A DNA stretch of 32,538 nucleotides from Polaribacter sp. Lineage in GTDB: Bacteria; Bacteroidota; Bacteroidia; Flavobacteriales; Flavobacteriaceae. Both the position numbers and the translations under genes were made by a program. Below, in pieces: positions 7,141 through 26,929 of this stretch; within the stretch, counting starts at the first letter, position 1; each line of letters begins with the position of its first letter. The stretch covers positions 1 through 32,538 of the forward strand of contig JAQWIO010000052.1 in assembly GCA_029248845.1 (NCBI GenBank). Reading direction: 5' to 3'. The notes beneath the pieces were generated by a model. That model searched no databases. It was not told where the DNA came from and worked only from the letters and a program-made list of their open reading frames with translations.

Positions 7141-8229
7141 TTGAAAAAAATTATTATCTCTGTCTCTAACGACCTTACAACAGATCAACGCGTAGCCAAG
7201 GTTTGCAATACTCTCCATAATGCAGGATTTCAGATTTTATTAATTGGCAGAAAACTTCAAAACAGTAAACCTTTGAAAAGAAAATATCAAACAAAAAGAA
7301 TATCCCTATTTTTTCATAAGGGTATTTTGTTTTATGCTGAATTAAATATTCGCTTATTTTTTTTGTTATTATTTCTTAAAAAAAATGTTTTATTAGCAAA
7401 TGATTTAGATACATTACTTCCTAATTATATGGTAAGCAAGCTTCTCAGAAAAAAACTGGTATTCGATAGTCATGAATTGTTTTCAGAAATCCCCGAGTTG
7501 GTACATCGTCCTTTTGTAAAAAAAATATGGATACGTCTAGAAAACCAGATGTTACCAAAATTAAAAAACGCCTATACCGTTTGCGATAGTATTGCGAATT
7601 ATTATGCTGAAAAATATCAAACAAAATTCAATGTTATTCGCAATCTCCCTGTAAAAAAAAATAGTATATCATTCAGCAAATTATCTTTTAATACTTCTGG
7701 AAAAAAAATAATTATTTATCAAGGAGCCGTGAATATGGGTAGAGGTTTGGAGTTTATAATTGACACCATGCCATTTCTTTCCAACTGCATTTTATTCATT
7801 GTTGGAACTGGAGATATTATAAAGAAGTTAAAAAAGCTTGTGGCACATAAAAACTTAGAAAAAAAAGTGAAATTCTTAGGTCAACTTCCTCCAAAAAAAC
7901 TTCAAACAATTACGCCTTTGGCAACACTAGGAATAAGTATAGAGGAAGATTTAGGCTTAAACTACCGATTTGCTTTGCCCAATAAAATATTTGATTACAT
8001 ACAAGCGGAAGTCCCTATTTTAGTTTCTGATTTACCAGAAATGAAAAGGATTGTAACCGACTATAAAGTAGGCGAAATTGTTACAAACAGAGAGCCCAAA
8101 AAAGTGGCAAAACAAATTAAAGAACTACTAAAAAAAGATTTTTCTAGTGAATTAAAAGCCGCAAAAAAAACATTAATATGGGAACATCAAGAAAACGAGT
8201 TATTAGCTATTTTCAAAAATTTAAAATAA
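7141..8229 (+). CDS. Glycosyltransferase (GT4-like, GT-B fold)
   Basis: Track ORF is 7099..8229, but both 7099 and 7141 are TTG starts; 7141 (…KKIIISVSNDLTTDQRVAKVC) fits the family N-terminus better. KKIIIYQGAVNMGRGLEFII, VKFLGQLPPKKL and LGLNYRFALPNKIFDYIQAEVPILVSDLPEM are GT4-like motifs. Confidence 0.85.
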   Translation: MKKIIISVSNDLTTDQRVAKVCNTLHNAGFQILLIGRKLQNSKPLKRKYQTKRISLFFHKGILFYAELNIRLFFLLLFLKKNVLLANDLDTLLPNYMVSKLLRKKLVFDSHELFSEIPELVHRPFVKKIWIRLENQMLPKLKNAYTVCDSIANYYAEKYQTKFNVIRNLPVKKNSISFSKLSFNTSGKKIIIYQGAVNMGRGLEFIIDTMPFLSNCILFIVGTGDIIKKLKKLVAHKNLEKKVKFLGQLPPKKLQTITPLATLGISIEEDLGLNYRFALPNKIFDYIQAEVPILVSDLPEMKRIVTDYKVGEIVTNREPKKVAKQIKELLKKDFSSELKAAKKTLIWEHQENELLAIFKNLK

Positions 8230-8235
8230 CTATTT

Positions 8236-8479
8236 TTAAAGAAAATCATATTTATTCATTTGATATCCATTAAATTTATATTCTCTAAAACTATCTTTTG
8301 CTACTGTTTTACCCAACCTTGGAAATTGATTGTAAATTGCTAAAAGAATTTCTTCATGTAATAACGTCTCTAAACAAAAAAATAACTGACTTTTACTGGC
8401 TAAAAACTGCTCCTTCGTTGTCAATATAATTGGCTTAAGGCTTTGATAAATTAACCTCAAAATAGGGTTCTCTATTCAT
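8236..8479 (-). pseudogene. Truncated paralogue of the 2OG-oxygenase gene at 6155..6970
   Basis: The 74-aa ORF (8236..8460) has LHEEILLAIYNQFPRLGKTVAKDSFREYKFNGYQMNKYDFL*. The full gene has MDLIEEIYQNLPKLSDSELKKNIREYKYVAYQMNKYAPL.... It ends where the full-length protein continues ~190 aa. A coupled ATG at 8479 (MNREPYFE...) is in a different frame. Confidence 0.65.
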
Positions 8480-9356
8480 TATATCTCTGTTTTAAGAAAC
8501 ACAAATAACTAATTTTCAAGCAATTTAAATAAAAAATAGATGAATATTGGATTGTCTTTTTCTCAAAATAAGTTGAAAATCTCCCTACAATATTTAAAAA
8601 GCCAAATAAGTTTATATAATTTACAATCTTTAATAAATTTCCTTCTTTATTAGAAATGAAATTTTGCTGTTCTAAAAAAATAATATTTTCCATTGCTTGT
8701 TTTGTTTTTAACACAAAGGTAACATCATCATCGAGACCAAGATGATAAACCTCATTTTTAATATGAACAATTTTATAATTTTCAACTTTTAAGTGCAACG
8801 AAAACAATAAATCTTCTCTTCCATATTTTTTTAGTTTTTCTTCAAACCGTATCCTTTTAAAGACCTCTTTAGAAATTAAAAAATTAGAAGTAAAGAAAAA
8901 CTTATACGCCTGTTTTTTTCTCTTCCCTAATTTAATTTCCTCGTAATTTATACCATATTTATAGCGAAGTAATTTTTTGTTTTCATCCGTTTCTATATAT
9001 TTAATACCCCCACAAAAAACAACACTGCTGTTATTTTTAATGGCCTTTAAATAATTCTGAATAAAGTCAGAATCTGTTGGTAAAACATCACTATCTAAAA
9101 ACAGCATCCACTGATATGATGATTTTTTTGATAAATAATTTCGAATTGCACTTCTGCCTATATTCTCTTTTAAAGCGATAAAGCTTCCAAATGCTAGGGT
9201 ATTTATCTCTTGATTAAACTGATTTAATACAGATTTAGAACCATCATCTATACAAATAATTTCGAATAAAATATTTAAATCTAGCAATTGTTTATGAAGC
9301 TCTTTAACTAAAGAAACAGCATTATAATTGTATGTAGGGATAAGAACTGAAAGCAT
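8472..9356 (-). CDS. Glycosyltransferase family 2
   Basis: MLSVLIPTYNYNAVSLVKELHKQL...EIICIDDGSKS...ENIGRSAIRNYLSKKSSYQWMLFLDSDVLP: canonical GT2 N-terminus with DDGS and DSD motifs. Confidence 0.92.
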   Translation of the reverse strand: MLSVLIPTYNYNAVSLVKELHKQLLDLNILFEIICIDDGSKSVLNQFNQEINTLAFGSFIALKENIGRSAIRNYLSKKSSYQWMLFLDSDVLPTDSDFIQNYLKAIKNNSSVVFCGGIKYIETDENKKLLRYKYGINYEEIKLGKRKKQAYKFFFTSNFLISKEVFKRIRFEEKLKKYGREDLLFSLHLKVENYKIVHIKNEVYHLGLDDDVTFVLKTKQAMENIIFLEQQNFISNKEGNLLKIVNYINLFGFLNIVGRFSTYFEKKTIQYSSIFYLNCLKISYLCFLKQRYNE

Positions 9357-10042
9357 TAGACAAGAGCTTTTTGAGCAACTTCAAAGAGTTCTCCTGCTTC
9401 ACATTTAAGCGTTTTTTGTTTGAATTTTACAAGTAGTTGATAATCATGAGTAGCCATTAAAATAGTTTTTCCCGATTTATGGATTTCATTTAAAAGTTCC
9501 ATAACTTCTAGTGAAGTTTTAGGGTCTAAGTTTCCTGTTGGTTCGTCCGCTAAAATTAATTCTGGATCATTTAATAAAGCTCTCGCTACCGCAACTCTTT
9601 GCTGCTCTCCTCCTGATAGTTCAAACGTTTTTTTGTAGTATTTTGTTTTCATACTAACTTTACTCAAGACCTCCTCAATTTTCAGCTTTATCTGTTGTTT
9701 ATTTTTCCAGCCAGTAGCTTTTAAAACAAATTCTAAATTTTCAAAAACAGTTCTATCATTTAATAATTTAAAATCTTGAAAAACAACTCCTATTTTTCTT
9801 CTTAAAAAAGGAATTTCTTTTTCTTTTAGATTTTTTAAATCAAAATCAACAATATTACCAATACCTCTTTGTAACCTTAAATCTCCATATAGCGTCTTAA
9901 TTAGGCTACTTTTCCCACTACCTGTTTTGCCAATTAAATAGTAAAAATCTCCTTTATTCATTGTTAAATTCACTTTAGACAAGACCAAATTATCTCTTTG
10001 ATAGATGTCGGCATTTTCTAAATATAAAACTGGTTTTTCCAT
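9356..10042 (-). CDS. ftsE: FtsE-like ABC transporter ATP-binding protein
   Basis: Walker A GKTGSGKSS, signature LSGGEQQRVAVARALLNDPELILADEPTGNLDP, FtsE-style FLRRKIGVVFQDFKLLNDRTVFENLEF. Abuts the GT2 start. Confidence 0.85.
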   Translation of the reverse strand: MEKPVLYLENADIYQRDNLVLSKVNLTMNKGDFYYLIGKTGSGKSSLIKTLYGDLRLQRGIGNIVDFDLKNLKEKEIPFLRRKIGVVFQDFKLLNDRTVFENLEFVLKATGWKNKQQIKLKIEEVLSKVSMKTKYYKKTFELSGGEQQRVAVARALLNDPELILADEPTGNLDPKTSLEVMELLNEIHKSGKTILMATHDYQLLVKFKQKTLKCEAGELFEVAQKALV

Positions 10043-21586: not shown

Positions 21587-21614
21587 AAAAAAAAGGCTTA
21601 TCGTGAGATAAGCC
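21587..21614 (-). terminator. trp attenuator terminator (3:4 hairpin)
   Basis: On the minus strand: GGCTTATC-TCAC-GATAAGCC followed by TTTTTTTT, between the Trp-rich leader ORF and trpE. Confidence 0.92.
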
Positions 21615-21642
21615 TTTTTTTTATGTTTTATACATATAGGAT

Positions 21643-21667
21643 GCTTCTCACTTATTAAATAAGAGAG
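21643..21667 (-). promoter_or_regulatory. trp antiterminator / anti-antiterminator segment
   Basis: Minus-strand GTGAGAAGC (21643-21651) can pair with GCTT(AT)CTCAC of the terminator 5' arm and loop (21603-21613). Alternatively TAAGTGAG (21647-21654) pairs with CTCTCTTA (21660-21667), one T:T mismatch. Confidence 0.7.
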
Positions 21668-21705
21668 CTCCACCACCAAGTATTATTTGTATTATTATCC
21701 ATCAT
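21655..21705 (-). CDS. trpL: trp operon leader peptide MMDNNTNNTWWWSSLI
   Basis: Reverse strand ATG ATG GAT AAT AAT ACA AAT AAT ACT TGG TGG TGG AGC TCT CTT ATT TAA: three consecutive Trp codons in a 16-codon ORF directly upstream of a terminator and trpE. Confidence 0.9.
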   Translation of the reverse strand: MMDNNTNNTWWWSSLI

Positions 21706-21712
21706 TATGATA

Positions 21713-21743
21713 CAAAAATAAGATAGATTTTTGATTAAACAAA
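21713..21743 (-). promoter_or_regulatory. Bacteroidota-type promoter for the trp leader
   Basis: Minus strand TTTG-N19-TATTTTTG, matching the Bacteroidota consensus TTTG-N19..21-TAnnTTTG, ~8 nt upstream of the leader ATG. Confidence 0.65.
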
Positions 21744-21758
21744 TTTTATCTTAAACTT

Positions 21759-24700
21759 TTATCTCATAATCTTTACATTCATCTCCTCAACATTTTTATC
21801 TGACAGGACAGAAGGTGCATTAAATAATAAATCTTCTGATGTTCCTGTTTTTGGGAACGCCAACACTTCTATGATAGATGCTTTCTTTTCTAATATCATC
21901 ATTAAACGATCTACACCCCAGGCAATTCCTCCATGAGGGGGAGCCCCATATTGAAACGCTTTGTACATGGTTCCAACGCTTTTCATCATTTCTTCTTTAG
22001 AATACCCCATATTTTTATAGGTTGCTTCTAATATTTCTGCTTTGTGAGCTCTAACTGAGCCTCCACCAATCTCGAAACCATTCAAAATTAAATCGTATTG
22101 TTGAGCAATAATAGTTCCAATTACTTCTCCATGACCATTCATATGTTTTTCTAAATCATAGATCGCTGGCATTGAAAATGGATTGTGTGTGAACGTCCAT
22201 CTACCCTCTTCTGTTTTTTCAAACATTGGAAAATCGACGACCCAAGCTGGACGCAATTCTTTTGGGTTGATCAATTTAAAAATACGCCCCATCTCCTGAC
22301 GAACAGCATCTAAAGCTTTATTTGCTATTGCATAATTTGCTGCGGAGAAAAATACAATATCCCCAATTTTAGCTGCTGTTGCTTTAATAATATTTGCTGC
22401 AATCTCTTCCCCCAAAAATTTAATAATTGGCGATTGTAGAGAATTTTCATTAACAATGATGTATGCTAAACCACCTAAACCATTTTGTTGCGCAATTGAC
22501 GTCAAATTTTCAATCTGTCCTTTAGACATCCTCTTATTTCCTTGCTCTTTAGCTGAAACTTTGATACATTTTACAATTCCACCTTCCTCTATTGGTTTGC
22601 TAAAAACTTGAAATGTTGTATCTCTTACGATATCAGTAATGTCTTGCATTTGCAAACCATAGCGTAAATCAGGTCTGTCACAACCGTATTTATCCATGGC
22701 ATCTTTATAAGTAATCACCTCAAAAGGATGTAAAATCCATTTTTTACCATAAATTTTCTTCACAACTTCATTAAACATTTTGGTGTTTAAATCAATGATT
22801 TGCTGCATGCTAGCATAGGCCATTTCTATGTCCAATTGCGTAAATTCTGGTTGACGATCACCACGTGAATCTTCGTCTCTAAAACAACGCGCAATTTGAA
22901 AATATTTTTCAAACCCACCAACCATTAGCATTTGCTTAAACTGCTGTGGAGCTTGAGGCAGGGTATAGAATGAACCCGCCTGCTTTCTTGTAGGAACAAT
23001 AAACTCTCTAGCTCCTTCATCTGTACCTGCTGTTAAAATTGGCGTTTCAATTTCTATAAATTCTTCTTCATCTAAAATATCACGTATTAATTTAATTACT
23101 TTATGTCGATTTACAATTGCTTTTCGAACCTCCTCGTTTCTGTGATCTAAAAACTTGTACTGAAAACGTACATTTTCATTTGTTTTGGTCGCTCTTTTTA
23201 TTTCAAAAGGAAGAGTTTTAGATAAGTTTAAAATTTCTAAAGTAGCTGTTTCTAACTCAAGTGTACCAGTTCTTAAACCTGAATTGTAATCATCTGCATT
23301 TCTTTGAACTACAGTTCCAGTTACCATAATTACAGTTTCTGGTTTTAATTTTACCAATTCATCTAAATTAGGAAATGTTTCTCTACTTAAACGTACTTGA
23401 AAAACTTGGTTACTTGAGTCTCGTAAATCAATAAAAATTAATTCTCCATGATCACGAACACTCGATACCCAACCAGATAAAATGACCTCATCACTTATGG
23501 ATTTATCTGATAATTGAGAAATCGTGTGTGTTCTATATTCTTCTTTTATTACAATCGGAATTTGAGCTAAGATTTCTTCTTCTACTTTGCTTTTTTGTTT
23601 TTCATTTTTAGTCGCTTTCTCTTTCGTATTTAGTTCATTTCCCTGGACTTGAGACTGTCTAGCAAGATTGTTTAGAATTTCTTGTCGGATTACTTTCCCT
23701 GAAGCACCTTTTCCAATAATAGCCATTACTTTTCCAACAAGAATACCAGCTTTTCCTTGGTTTCCTGCTTTGATATCATTTGCAATAACTGTATTTTCAG
23801 AAATCACTTTTTGAACTGTATTTATAATTTTATCTTCAGAGATCGTATTCTGTTCAAAGTATTTTTTATAATCAAAAGCACTATCTTTCAAATAAGATAG
23901 TATTCCATTTTGAACCAATACTGAAGTAATTTTTTCTTGCTTGAACAATTCAAAAATTTCAATCAAATGGTCAATATTATGAATACTTTTGTACTGATCT
24001 GCTCCTAAATTATTTACCAAAGTTTTCGCTACAAAAGACGGATCCTTAATTACATTATTAATGGTAATAAAAGTCTTTGAACGCAAAGAATCTGCCGTAA
24101 AAAACTTTGCATCTTGCGGTAAAACACCACCTTTTATCAAAATAGACTCTACTGCAAAAGGCAATGAACTTAAATCTACATCGATACTTTCTACTACTTG
24201 CTTTATACTTACAAGAGGTAAATCTGGTTCAGAAATAAATCTATAATCAGCCTCAAACTCTTTCGTTCGCATGGTTTTGGTTTGCTTTAAATCTGCATCC
24301 CATAATACCGTAGTTTGTTCGGGTCTAAATTCCTTATGCGTTATATAATAATTCAATTGCTTTTCAACTTCTTCCTTTAAAGCATCTACCATAAACTTAA
24401 ACGAATTCAAGTTTTTAATTTCTGTACGTGGATTTAAATAATCACTGTGTTTTTTACGAAGTGATACAGAAACATCTGACTTAAATTCACCTTTTTCAAG
24501 ATTCGCTTCAGATATTTTTAAATTTTGAACAATTCTCTGAATGTACTGCGCATAAGTTGATGCGTCTTCAATATGACGAATACAAGGCTCAGTTACAATT
24601 TCGATTAATGGAACTCCTGCTTTATTAAAATCGACTAATGAAATATCTTTTTCATGGATTAATTTAGCGGCATCTTCTTCAATATGAACTTGTGTTAAAT

Positions 24701-25091
24701 TGACTGTAAATTGAGAACCATCATTTCTAAAACAAGAAACTTGTCCATCAGGAATTACAGGGTTATGAAATTGGGTAATTTGAATATTCTTTGGATTGTC
24801 TGGATACTCATAATGCTTTCTATCCCAAGAAATTACTTCATTTGCAAAGGTAGATTTTACTGCTTTTCCAAAATAGATAGCCTTCTTAATTGCTTCTTTA
24901 TTAATAGATGGCAATACTCCCATTTGACCCGTACAAACTGAACAAATATTTTGATTTGGCACTTCTGTTTCTTGATTTGCACAAGAACAAAACAATTTAG
25001 TTTTGGTATTTAATCGAACGTGCGTTTCTAAACCAATGACCAACTCTAAGTCGTGTTTTTTTAATAAGTCGTGTAATTGTCTCAGTTCCAT
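21759..25091 (-). CDS. gatB-aspS: Fusion protein: Asp/Glu-tRNA amidotransferase subunit B (N-term) + aspartyl-tRNA synthetase (C-term)
   Basis: A single uninterrupted 1110-aa ORF. GatB part: LVIGLETHVRLNTKTKLFCSCANQ..., zinc CxC...CxxC, YPDNPKNIQITQ, LIEIVTEP. Lys/Glu-rich linker: NELNTKEKATKNEKQKSKVEEE. Class II AspRS: GWVSSVRDHGELIFIDLRD, FIEIETPILT, RCFRDEDSRGDRQPEFTQLDIEM, GIAWGVDRLMMIL. Confidence 0.96.
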   Translation of the reverse strand: MELRQLHDLLKKHDLELVIGLETHVRLNTKTKLFCSCANQETEVPNQNICSVCTGQMGVLPSINKEAIKKAIYFGKAVKSTFANEVISWDRKHYEYPDNPKNIQITQFHNPVIPDGQVSCFRNDGSQFTVNLTQVHIEEDAAKLIHEKDISLVDFNKAGVPLIEIVTEPCIRHIEDASTYAQYIQRIVQNLKISEANLEKGEFKSDVSVSLRKKHSDYLNPRTEIKNLNSFKFMVDALKEEVEKQLNYYITHKEFRPEQTTVLWDADLKQTKTMRTKEFEADYRFISEPDLPLVSIKQVVESIDVDLSSLPFAVESILIKGGVLPQDAKFFTADSLRSKTFITINNVIKDPSFVAKTLVNNLGADQYKSIHNIDHLIEIFELFKQEKITSVLVQNGILSYLKDSAFDYKKYFEQNTISEDKIINTVQKVISENTVIANDIKAGNQGKAGILVGKVMAIIGKGASGKVIRQEILNNLARQSQVQGNELNTKEKATKNEKQKSKVEEEILAQIPIVIKEEYRTHTISQLSDKSISDEVILSGWVSSVRDHGELIFIDLRDSSNQVFQVRLSRETFPNLDELVKLKPETVIMVTGTVVQRNADDYNSGLRTGTLELETATLEILNLSKTLPFEIKRATKTNENVRFQYKFLDHRNEEVRKAIVNRHKVIKLIRDILDEEEFIEIETPILTAGTDEGAREFIVPTRKQAGSFYTLPQAPQQFKQMLMVGGFEKYFQIARCFRDEDSRGDRQPEFTQLDIEMAYASMQQIIDLNTKMFNEVVKKIYGKKWILHPFEVITYKDAMDKYGCDRPDLRYGLQMQDITDIVRDTTFQVFSKPIEEGGIVKCIKVSAKEQGNKRMSKGQIENLTSIAQQNGLGGLAYIIVNENSLQSPIIKFLGEEIAANIIKATAAKIGDIVFFSAANYAIANKALDAVRQEMGRIFKLINPKELRPAWVVDFPMFEKTEEGRWTFTHNPFSMPAIYDLEKHMNGHGEVIGTIIAQQYDLILNGFEIGGGSVRAHKAEILEATYKNMGYSKEEMMKSVGTMYKAFQYGAPPHGGIAWGVDRLMMILEKKASIIEVLAFPKTGTSEDLLFNAPSVLSDKNVEEMNVKIMR

Positions 25092-26491
25092 TATAATATA
25101 TCCTTTAAAAAGTTAGCAAACTTAAAAACGAGTTCGTCATTATTTTTTGCAGCCGTAATTTGTAATCCTGTTTGAGTTCCTTGAGGAACCGTTAAGGTTG
25201 GCAATTGTCCTAAACTAAAACCAACAGTATACGCATCAGACAAATACATCGCTAAAGGCTCTTTTAAACTATCTCCAATTTGAGGAGGTGTATTAGGAGT
25301 TACTGGTGATATAATAATGTCAACTTCCTTGAAATCATTTTCAAAATTTTTGGCAATTTGATCTCTTAAATTTAATCCTTTTAAATAAATTTCATCAGAA
25401 AAACCTTGAGATAACACTTGATTTCCACCAACAATTCTTCGTTTGGTTTCTTCAGAAAAATTTTCTGAACGTGTTATTGAATAAGTATCTTTTAAGGTCT
25501 CTCCCTCAATTCTATTTCCATAATTGGTTCCATCTAGCCTTGATAGATTTGAAGCAGTTTCTGCCATTGCTAGCGTATAATAAGTAGACACTAAAGAATC
25601 AGGTTCAAAAAAGTTAAGCGCTTTTACCTGCATTCCTTTTGCCTTTACTTTTTCAATTGAAGCATAAAAATCTAATTTTATTTGTGGATCAATAGCGTCA
25701 GTTTCTGTGAAGTTTTTAAAATATCCAACAGTTTTTATCTCATCAACATTATCTATTGCTTCTTTTGAAATTTTTTCAGAATGATATGTGGTTTGATCTT
25801 TTATATCTTTTCCACTGATCTCATTTAATACGATTCTAATATCTTCTATCGATTTCGCAATAGGGCCCACACAATCTGTTGATGAAGCATATGCCATTAA
25901 TCCAAAACGTGAAATTCTTCCATAAGTCGGTTTAAAACCATATACTTTATTATACCCTGCTGGTTGCCGAATAGACCCCCCTGTATCTCCACCTATTGAA
26001 AAAACAGTCAGATCTTTAGCTACATTTACAGCAGAACCTCCACTAGAACCTCCACCCACTAAATCCGGATTTATAGCATTTTTTACAGCCCCAAAAATGG
26101 TATTTTCTGAAGAAGATCCGTGACCAAAGCTATCACAATTTTCTTTCACTAGAGGAATCGCACCAGCATCCAACAATTTTTGAATTGCAGTTGCTGTATA
26201 AGGTGATCTATACCTCTTAAGGAAATTTGAACTTGCTGTAGTATACGTTCCTTGTAGCATATATACATCTTTAATACCAAAAGGAATTCCCTCTAACAAA
26301 CCTATTTTTTCACCACAATCTATTTTGGCATCTACCTTTTTAGCAAGTTCTAAAGCTATTTCCTCCAATAGTGAATTCGCTGTTGCGTGAGTATTGGATT
26401 TCAATAAAATTAGTCGTTCTTGTACCAACTTTACACAAGTAACTTCTTTGCGCACTAATTGTTGATGAATTTTATGTATTTGTGACTCCAT
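25091..26491 (-). CDS. gatA: Asp/Glu-tRNA amidotransferase subunit A
   Basis: Amidase signature: GIPFGIKDVY, NPDLVGGGSSGGSAVNVA, SIGGDTGGSIRQPAGYNKVYGFKPTYGRISRFGL. The Lys-Ser-Ser catalytic elements are present. Confidence 0.96.
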   Translation of the reverse strand: MESQIHKIHQQLVRKEVTCVKLVQERLILLKSNTHATANSLLEEIALELAKKVDAKIDCGEKIGLLEGIPFGIKDVYMLQGTYTTASSNFLKRYRSPYTATAIQKLLDAGAIPLVKENCDSFGHGSSSENTIFGAVKNAINPDLVGGGSSGGSAVNVAKDLTVFSIGGDTGGSIRQPAGYNKVYGFKPTYGRISRFGLMAYASSTDCVGPIAKSIEDIRIVLNEISGKDIKDQTTYHSEKISKEAIDNVDEIKTVGYFKNFTETDAIDPQIKLDFYASIEKVKAKGMQVKALNFFEPDSLVSTYYTLAMAETASNLSRLDGTNYGNRIEGETLKDTYSITRSENFSEETKRRIVGGNQVLSQGFSDEIYLKGLNLRDQIAKNFENDFKEVDIIISPVTPNTPPQIGDSLKEPLAMYLSDAYTVGFSLGQLPTLTVPQGTQTGLQITAAKNNDELVFKFANFLKDIL

Positions 26492-26493
26492 AT

Positions 26494-26757
26494 CTATTCT
26501 TCTATTACCTTAGAAACCAATAAAAAACCATTTTTTTCTTTTGGAAAATTCTCTAAAATAAGTTGTTTTTCTATTTGAGAACTATCAAAAACAATATCGT
26601 CTCTTAAATCATCCAAAGACACTGCATTATGATGATGATTAAAAGAATTATTTGGGGTATTGGCCTTTTTAATTACTTCAAATAATGTGTTCACAGTTTC
26701 TGATGGCTGTGCTCCTTTAATACTAGACAATATGTCCACTGTCATAATTTTACTCAT
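26494..26757 (-). CDS. gatC: Divergent Asp/Glu-tRNA amidotransferase subunit C
   Basis: Operon position. C-terminal SLDDLRDDIVFDSSQIEKQLILENFPKEKNGFLLVSKVIEE resembles the GatC C-terminus. Track start at 26808 lies in the upstream terminator; the likely start is the ATG at 26757 (MSKIMTVDIL). Confidence 0.8.
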   Translation of the reverse strand: MSKIMTVDILSSIKGAQPSETVNTLFEVIKKANTPNNSFNHHHNAVSLDDLRDDIVFDSSQIEKQLILENFPKEKNGFLLVSKVIEE

Positions 26758-26773: not shown

Positions 26774-26805
26774 TTAAAAAAAAGCCTTCCAAAAATGGAA
26801 GGCTT
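26774..26805 (-). terminator. Attenuator terminator upstream of gatC
   Basis: Minus strand AAGCCTTCCA-TTTT-TGGAAGGCTT followed by a T-tract: perfect 10-bp stem between the Asn-rich leader ORF and gatC. Confidence 0.93.
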
Positions 26806-26820
26806 CATATATTTCTAAAC

Positions 26821-26869
26821 AACAACCCTCCTATCCTAATAAATTAGGATTATTGAAATTACGATTGTT
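26821..26869 (-). promoter_or_regulatory. Putative gat antiterminator and anti-antiterminator segments
   Basis: Minus-strand GGAGGGUU (26824-26831) can form 8 contiguous pairs (2 G·U) with AGCCUUCC of the terminator 5' arm (26797-26804). The overlapping GGUUGUU (26821-26827) can pair with AACAAUC within the Asn codons (26863-26869), 7 pairs with 1 G·U. Confidence 0.6.
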
Positions 26870-26884
26870 ATTGATAATTACCAT
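26831..26884 (-). CDS. Asn-rich attenuator leader peptide MVIINNNRNFNNPNLLG
   Basis: Reverse strand ATG GTA ATT ATC AAT AAC AAT CGT AAT TTC AAT AAT CCT AAT TTA TTA GGA TAG. Seven Asn codons of 17, directly upstream of a perfect terminator and gatC. Confidence 0.82.
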   Translation of the reverse strand: MVIINNNRNFNNPNLLG

Positions 26885-26902: not shown

Positions 26903-26929
26903 CAAATATAGATAGAATAAACGGTACAA
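26903..26929 (-). promoter_or_regulatory. Possible Bacteroidota-type promoter for the gat leader
   Basis: Minus strand TATATTTG (TAnnTTTG) at 26903-26910, preceded by TTG after a 16-nt spacer (slightly short), ~18 nt upstream of the leader ATG. Confidence 0.5.

Follow-up and report, generated by a model that had tools for sequence, protein, structure and literature searches.

An asparagine-rich leader and putative transcription attenuator before a gatC-gatA-gatB::aspS operon that shares a chromosomal slot with asnB in Flavobacteriaceae

Why should an operon for a tRNA-dependent amidotransferase be preceded by a short open reading frame (ORF) made up largely of asparagine codons? The window, by which we mean the whole 32,538-nt stretch of Polaribacter sp. 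DNA that was analysed, raises this question on its minus strand, where such an ORF is followed by an intrinsic terminator and then by gatC, gatA and a gatB::aspS fusion gene. In the absence of RNA or enzyme data, we think it highly probable that this region works as an attenuator of the ribosome-mediated kind, through which transcription of an operon for asparagine biosynthesis responds to the level of Asn-tRNA(Asn).

Leader ORF, terminator and antiterminator

The leader ORF (26831..26884, minus strand) encodes MVIINNNRNFNNPNLLG-stop, with 7 Asn codons among 17; its ATG occupies 26884-26882 (-), its TAG stop ends at 26831, and gatC starts downstream at 26757. The coordinates, peptide and Asn count agree with the sequence-only reading that preceded this work, which had placed an Asn-rich 17-codon ORF 5' of a terminator and gatC. 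No Shine-Dalgarno sequence for the ORF was seen by eye. Sequence and conservation point to a Bacteroidota promoter -7 element, TATATTTG (26903..26910, minus strand), matched to the consensus TAnnTTTG (PMC9723704), and a TTTG further 5' may be the -33 element. A TAnnTTTG-like element recurs in 55/55 of the homologous leaders described below, 10-23 nt and mostly 16-19 nt 5' of the leader ATG.

Between leader and gatC lies an intrinsic terminator with its T run (GAAGCCTTCCA-TTTT-TGGAAGGCTTT; 26774..26806, minus strand), identified from sequence and covariation. Its stem (26806-26781 (-)) has 11 bp and a loop of 4 with the T run after it, as had been claimed, and the chance expectation is 0.1 terminator-like sites in the region. 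Across the leaders this stem is 97% paired, with double changes at three pairs (23 such cells), a level that 0/500 shuffles reached. The antiterminator strand, GGAGGGUU (26824..26831, minus strand), has the G of the UAG stop as its first base. Folding after removal of the upstream RNA reproduced the 8 bp that it had been proposed to form with the terminator 5' arm (z -3.6), and the fold of the window's leader as a whole is better than that of shuffled sequences by 4.3 sd (z -4.3). The same pairing is available in 55/55 leaders, over 6-13 contiguous bp (97.9% paired), with no double change in any of the 55. Such invariance is to be expected, and is not positive proof, because the partner of the antiterminator is also the terminator 5' arm. 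Covariation of both stems had been put forward as a check: the terminator satisfies it, but the antiterminator is kept by invariance, not covariation. One extra antiterminator pair gave p about 0.08, and we do not claim it.

How might a ribosome choose between these structures? We assumed a ribosome footprint and folded truncated transcripts under that constraint. Stalls at codons -14 to -3 gave the antiterminator a computed probability of 0.96-0.99, a stall at codon -2 gave 0.76 and one at -1 gave 0.05; with the ribosome on the stop codon the value was 0.00. What mainly sets the computed switch is therefore whether the ribosome stalls upstream of the stop or is released there, which agrees, as a computed result only, with the earlier proposal that a ribosome at UAG favours termination and one stalled on Asn codons frees the antiterminator. 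That proposal also included a 1:2 stem, AACAAUC/GGUUGUU. The stem is possible in the window, where a hairpin CCUAA..UUAGG that forms part of it folds within the end of the leader ORF (26835..26848, minus strand), and RNAalifold recovers a related stem, the leader hairpin showing 2 compensated double changes from CG to UA in the consensus structure; but in constrained folding the antiterminator is the stronger of the two. Even with no ribosome present, the antiterminator is favoured in the truncated RNA at equilibrium (probability 0.91), and therefore the 1:2 stem does not explain an off state without translation. From these models it looks secondary.

The mechanism we envisage is as follows. 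When Asn-tRNA is plentiful, the ribosome would get to UAG and mask GGAGGGUU, and the terminator would halt transcription before gatC. When it is scarce, the ribosome would stall in the Asn codons, leaving GGAGGGUU to pair with CCUUCC; the antiterminator so formed would block the terminator, and gatCA-gatB::aspS would be made. Of the features that define such an attenuator, an Asn-rich leader ORF, a terminator before the first gene and a ribosome-dependent antiterminator are met by sequence and constrained folding. That the operon makes or charges the cognate amino acid is met by inference, from its genes and from the replacement of AsnB discussed below. The anatomy is observed; stalling, read-through when charged tRNA is low, and antitermination in the cell are inferred.

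Conservation and specificity of the leader

The 24 genomes found to carry the fusion, together with 80 named loci spanning Polaribacter, Algibacter, Flavivirga, Tamlana, Aestuariibaculum, Flaviramulus, Lutibacter, Flavobacterium and others, gave 55 distinct homologous leaders, all from Flavobacteriaceae. Every leader opens with ATG, runs for 14-17 codons of which 6-10 are Asn, and closes with a stop codon (TAG in 54). Asn accounts for 469/821 codons, and AAT and AAC replace one another synonymously. From this codon exchange and the conserved frame we infer that the leader is translated. The alignment of gatC upstream regions that the sequence-only reading had suggested as a check thus found the Asn-rich ORF open in 55/55 and a covarying terminator. 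Homologous regions with the terminator but no such ORF would have refuted it, and no case was seen among the leader-type terminators found, each of which is preceded by an in-frame Asn-rich ORF.

The leader is observed only in association with gatC. A covariance model of the element, R1, gave 14 strong matches in 151 Flavobacteriaceae genomes (104-124 bits, the next at 52 bits), all 5' of gatC; 13 of them were leaders already aligned, and the remaining one, in genome G125, also precedes gatC. In 398 Bacteroidota genomes R1 gave no strong score besides the window. We regard weaker matches elsewhere (41-52 bits) as noise, since they grade into one another at scores well short of those of the true leaders, though their neighbourhoods were not read individually. 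We also scanned 2.3 Mb of flavobacterial DNA, on both strands, for terminators preceded by a short ORF in which a single residue makes up at least 40%: all 46 Asn cases are gatC leaders, and the 3 others are all Leu. The arrangement of Asn-rich ORF and terminator is not a product of chance.

The leader is nevertheless not essential to the operon, since it is present in 55/96 cassettes on the tree and none is shown in 41/96. A few of these leaderless cassettes (such as L111 and L125) are truncated by contig ends, the remainder have, by eye, a direct promoter-like sequence 5' of gatC, and the cassette tree requires 11 gains or losses of the leader. That many carriers manage without it is one reason to consider a simpler possibility, namely that the region is a constitutive dosage device or an upstream ORF, in which the terminator would cut expression to a constant degree and ribosomes would merely be slowed by the Asn codons, with nothing being sensed. 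There are no expression data to set against this, and AT-rich DNA favours AAT codons by itself. But a terminator alone would need neither an Asn-rich ORF held open in 55/55 leaders nor a GGAAGG strand at the stop; Lys is nearly absent (16/821 codons) although AAA is equally AT-rich; and in the 2.3 Mb scan this leader accounted for every Asn-rich short ORF that preceded a terminator. We consider a constitutive device unlikely. The conserved stem-loop and nucleotide-level conservation might instead suggest that the ORF is incidental and that the structured leader serves as an sRNA or as the target of a protein or small molecule, but this has very little to recommend it. The reading frame with its start and stop is conserved, as is the Asn identity of its codons even where AAT and AAC have been exchanged, and the best sub-threshold Rfam match of the element, Phe_leader (RF01859; 30.9 bits against a gathering score of 55), is itself a leader-peptide attenuator. 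We therefore return to the Asn-sensing attenuator as the preferred reading, and ask what its operon does.

The operon, asparagine supply and the asnB slot

The first gene, gatC (26494..26757, minus strand), is divergent and has an Asn-rich linker; its matches to NCBIfam TIGR00135 (E 1.3e-4) and Pfam PF02686 (E 8e-4) are both below cut-off, and its assignment also draws on its position 5' of gatA in the carriers examined. The linker is conserved, with an average of about 13% Asn across carriers, and might itself be sensitive to Asn supply. Within the gatC 5' coding region, a hairpin, GTCGACNNNTTGTCGAG (26722-26739 (-)), is conserved in carriers with and without the leader, and one of its pairs, at synonymous sites, changes from CG to AT, GC or TA across 85 sequences. 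The amidase subunit gene gatA (25091..26491, minus strand) matches TIGR00132 (E 1.9e-127, below the curated cut-off) and PF01425. The third gene, gatB::aspS (21759..25091, minus strand), encodes a 1110-aa fusion, with GatB at about 14-477 and AspRS at about 518-1109. The fusion occurs in 24/151 Flavobacteriaceae genomes, its relatives being 78-85% identical to that of the window, and G125, found through its leader and lying at a contig end, is a 25th carrier. We found no description of a GatB-AspRS fusion in the open-access literature searched.

In the 42 genomes checked, GatB occurs once each in 24/24 carriers and in 0/18 non-carriers. The fused AspRS is an extra copy, accompanied by the GatCAB genes, beyond a housekeeping AspRS that is encoded by a separate gene and is, where listed, about 40% identical to it. 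The fused copy has the motif RDHG in 24/24 and 80/80 cases, as does the AspRS of PDB 4WJ3, which is labelled Asp/Asn ligase and which we take to be from P. aeruginosa; RDLG is found in the AspRS entries that we likewise take to be those of E. coli and T. thermophilus (AspRS-1), and RDKG or RDLG in five flavobacterial housekeeping AspRS. If this position matters for the recognition of tRNA(Asn), as we assume, the motif suggests that the fused AspRS is probably non-discriminating, its charging activity being inferred. The AspRS part would then charge tRNA(Asn) with Asp, and GatCAB would amidate the product.

The sequence-only reading had described these genes as the enzyme set that makes Asn-tRNA(Asn). 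The GatCAB/AspRS set does fit that description, but it is best seen as more than a charging set. AsnRS is present in 42/42 genomes checked and GlnRS exceeds the cut-off in 40/42, so GatCAB is not needed for charging; the universal presence of AsnRS in this set rules out a charging-only role and leads us to see the operon as a biosynthetic route that replaces AsnB. Housekeeping AsnB (reference L178, 66% identical to E. coli AsnB) is found in 110/151 genomes and in 0/25 carriers, and AsnA in 0/25 carriers. Asparagine synthetase paralogues in some carriers were not counted as AsnB: with no more than 25-30% identity to the E. coli enzyme, they are probably polysaccharide-cluster amidotransferases. 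A third route to Asn, AsnA, is found in two non-carriers without housekeeping AsnB (G007 C10:32448-33398 and G023 C1:2036841-2037758).

The exclusivity of cassette and AsnB is observed directly within the window's genus, where 39 of 80 genomes have the cassette, 38 have AsnB and 0 have both; each of the 57/57 near-complete genomes has exactly one of the two (31 + 26; Fisher p 8e-17, uncorrected for relatedness). This exclusivity rests on relatives, because the window's own genome is 53% complete and the absence of AsnB from it is weak evidence. Several features expected of tRNA-dependent Asn biosynthesis are present, namely GatCAB with an AspRS, no AsnA or housekeeping AsnB, and a U1-A72 pair in tRNA(Asn), but the last does not discriminate, since U1-A72 is present in all tRNA(Asn) genes read from carriers and non-carriers alike. 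We conclude that gatC-gatA-gatB::aspS is probably an asparagine biosynthesis operon, with Asn production inferred from its genes and from the replacement of AsnB.

Cassette and gene also occupy the same place. Within the genus, the slot between trpE and gyrB holds asnB in genomes that lack the cassette and the cassette itself in carriers, in both orientations (L228, L229, L252 and L270 versus L251-L269), the leader accompanying it in either. Because the cassette replaces AsnB in the asnB slot, the leader is most likely an attenuator of tRNA-dependent Asn synthesis. It might be objected that GatCAB enzymes generally can also amidate Glu-tRNA(Gln), so that the operon could serve Gln-tRNA formation or some other purpose and the leader sense Asn for another reason, but GlnRS in nearly all carriers, a synthetase fused to GatB that is an AspRS, and a cassette in the asnB slot that is never found together with housekeeping asnB leave this very improbable. 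On a GyrB tree at least 5 switches between asnB and cassette are required; the tree is not one of species, since gyrB, as a neighbour of the slot, could have moved together with it. With good confidence, then, we regard asnB and gatC-gatA-gatB::aspS as interchangeable alleles of one slot, the operon often bringing its own Asn-tRNA-sensing attenuator, a kind of leader so far undescribed for either Asn or GatCAB.

No Asn leader of the gatC type was found before asnB in non-carriers. One locus, L217, has a short Asn-containing ORF before asnB, but it gave no model match, and we rejected shared regulation with asnB. In this locus (about 7800-9434, from the complete same-genus genome G133) asnB itself contains one internal TGA and one TAA, and intact copies exist in relatives.

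Relation to known systems

Like the enterobacterial trp, his and phe leaders, the Asn leader combines a short peptide in which the product amino acid abounds, an antiterminator and a terminator that exclude one another, and biosynthesis genes on its 3' side. It differs from them in that it would sense Asn and govern an operon for tRNA-dependent amidation, in that its antiterminator overlaps the stop codon, and in its Bacteroidota-type promoter. A T-box reportedly controls tRNA-dependent Asn synthesis in C. acetobutylicum, an organism with redundant pathways, to go by the title of the work (Saad, 2012). As far as a title can tell, the regulatory logic is alike, but a T-box binds tRNA directly, whereas here the tRNA would be sensed through the translation of a leader peptide. 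A 2008 survey found no T-box in 7 Bacteroidetes/Chlorobi genomes (PMC2494555).

Transfer-RNA-dependent Asn biosynthesis is known from Deinococcus radiodurans and Thermus thermophilus and has been proposed for Bdellovibrio, and organisms with AsnRS, GlnRS and GatCAB but no asparagine synthetase have been described (PMC4206432). Flavobacterial carriers resemble them in having AsnRS, GlnRS, GatCAB with AspRS, and U1-A72, without asparagine synthetase. They differ in that the second AspRS, which a 2014 survey found among such genomes only in Deinococcus-Thermus (PMC4206432), is bacterial-type and fused to GatB, and in that the cassette swaps with asnB in one slot. If our reading is true, the element would be a leader-peptide attenuator for asparagine and would place tRNA-dependent amidation, for which the known case is a T-box, under translation-based control. 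The in situ exchange of asnB and cassette would offer natural allele pairs within one genus with which to ask why a tRNA-dependent Asn route is kept despite AsnRS, and GatB::AspRS, whose two parts are covalently linked, is a candidate transamidosome.

The earlier reading knew of no asparagine leader for gatCAB, and we too found no description in Rfam or in the open-access literature searched. Rfam gave no match to the Asn leader at gathering score. In F. psychrophilum, clues to leader-peptide attenuation have been reported before amino acid operons, with asparagine and gatB unmentioned in the main text (PMC9723704). The Bacteroid-trp leader (RF01692), also from Bacteroidota, attenuates an amino acid operon by means of a leader peptide, as we propose for the Asn leader, but it governs the Trp operon; it does not match the Asn leader at gathering score and is absent from matches up to E 10. 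The only match to RF01692 in the window itself lies 5' of trpE (21607-21722 (-)) and 5 kb from the Asn leader, so that two amino acid attenuators, the one before gatC still putative, would lie 5 kb apart.
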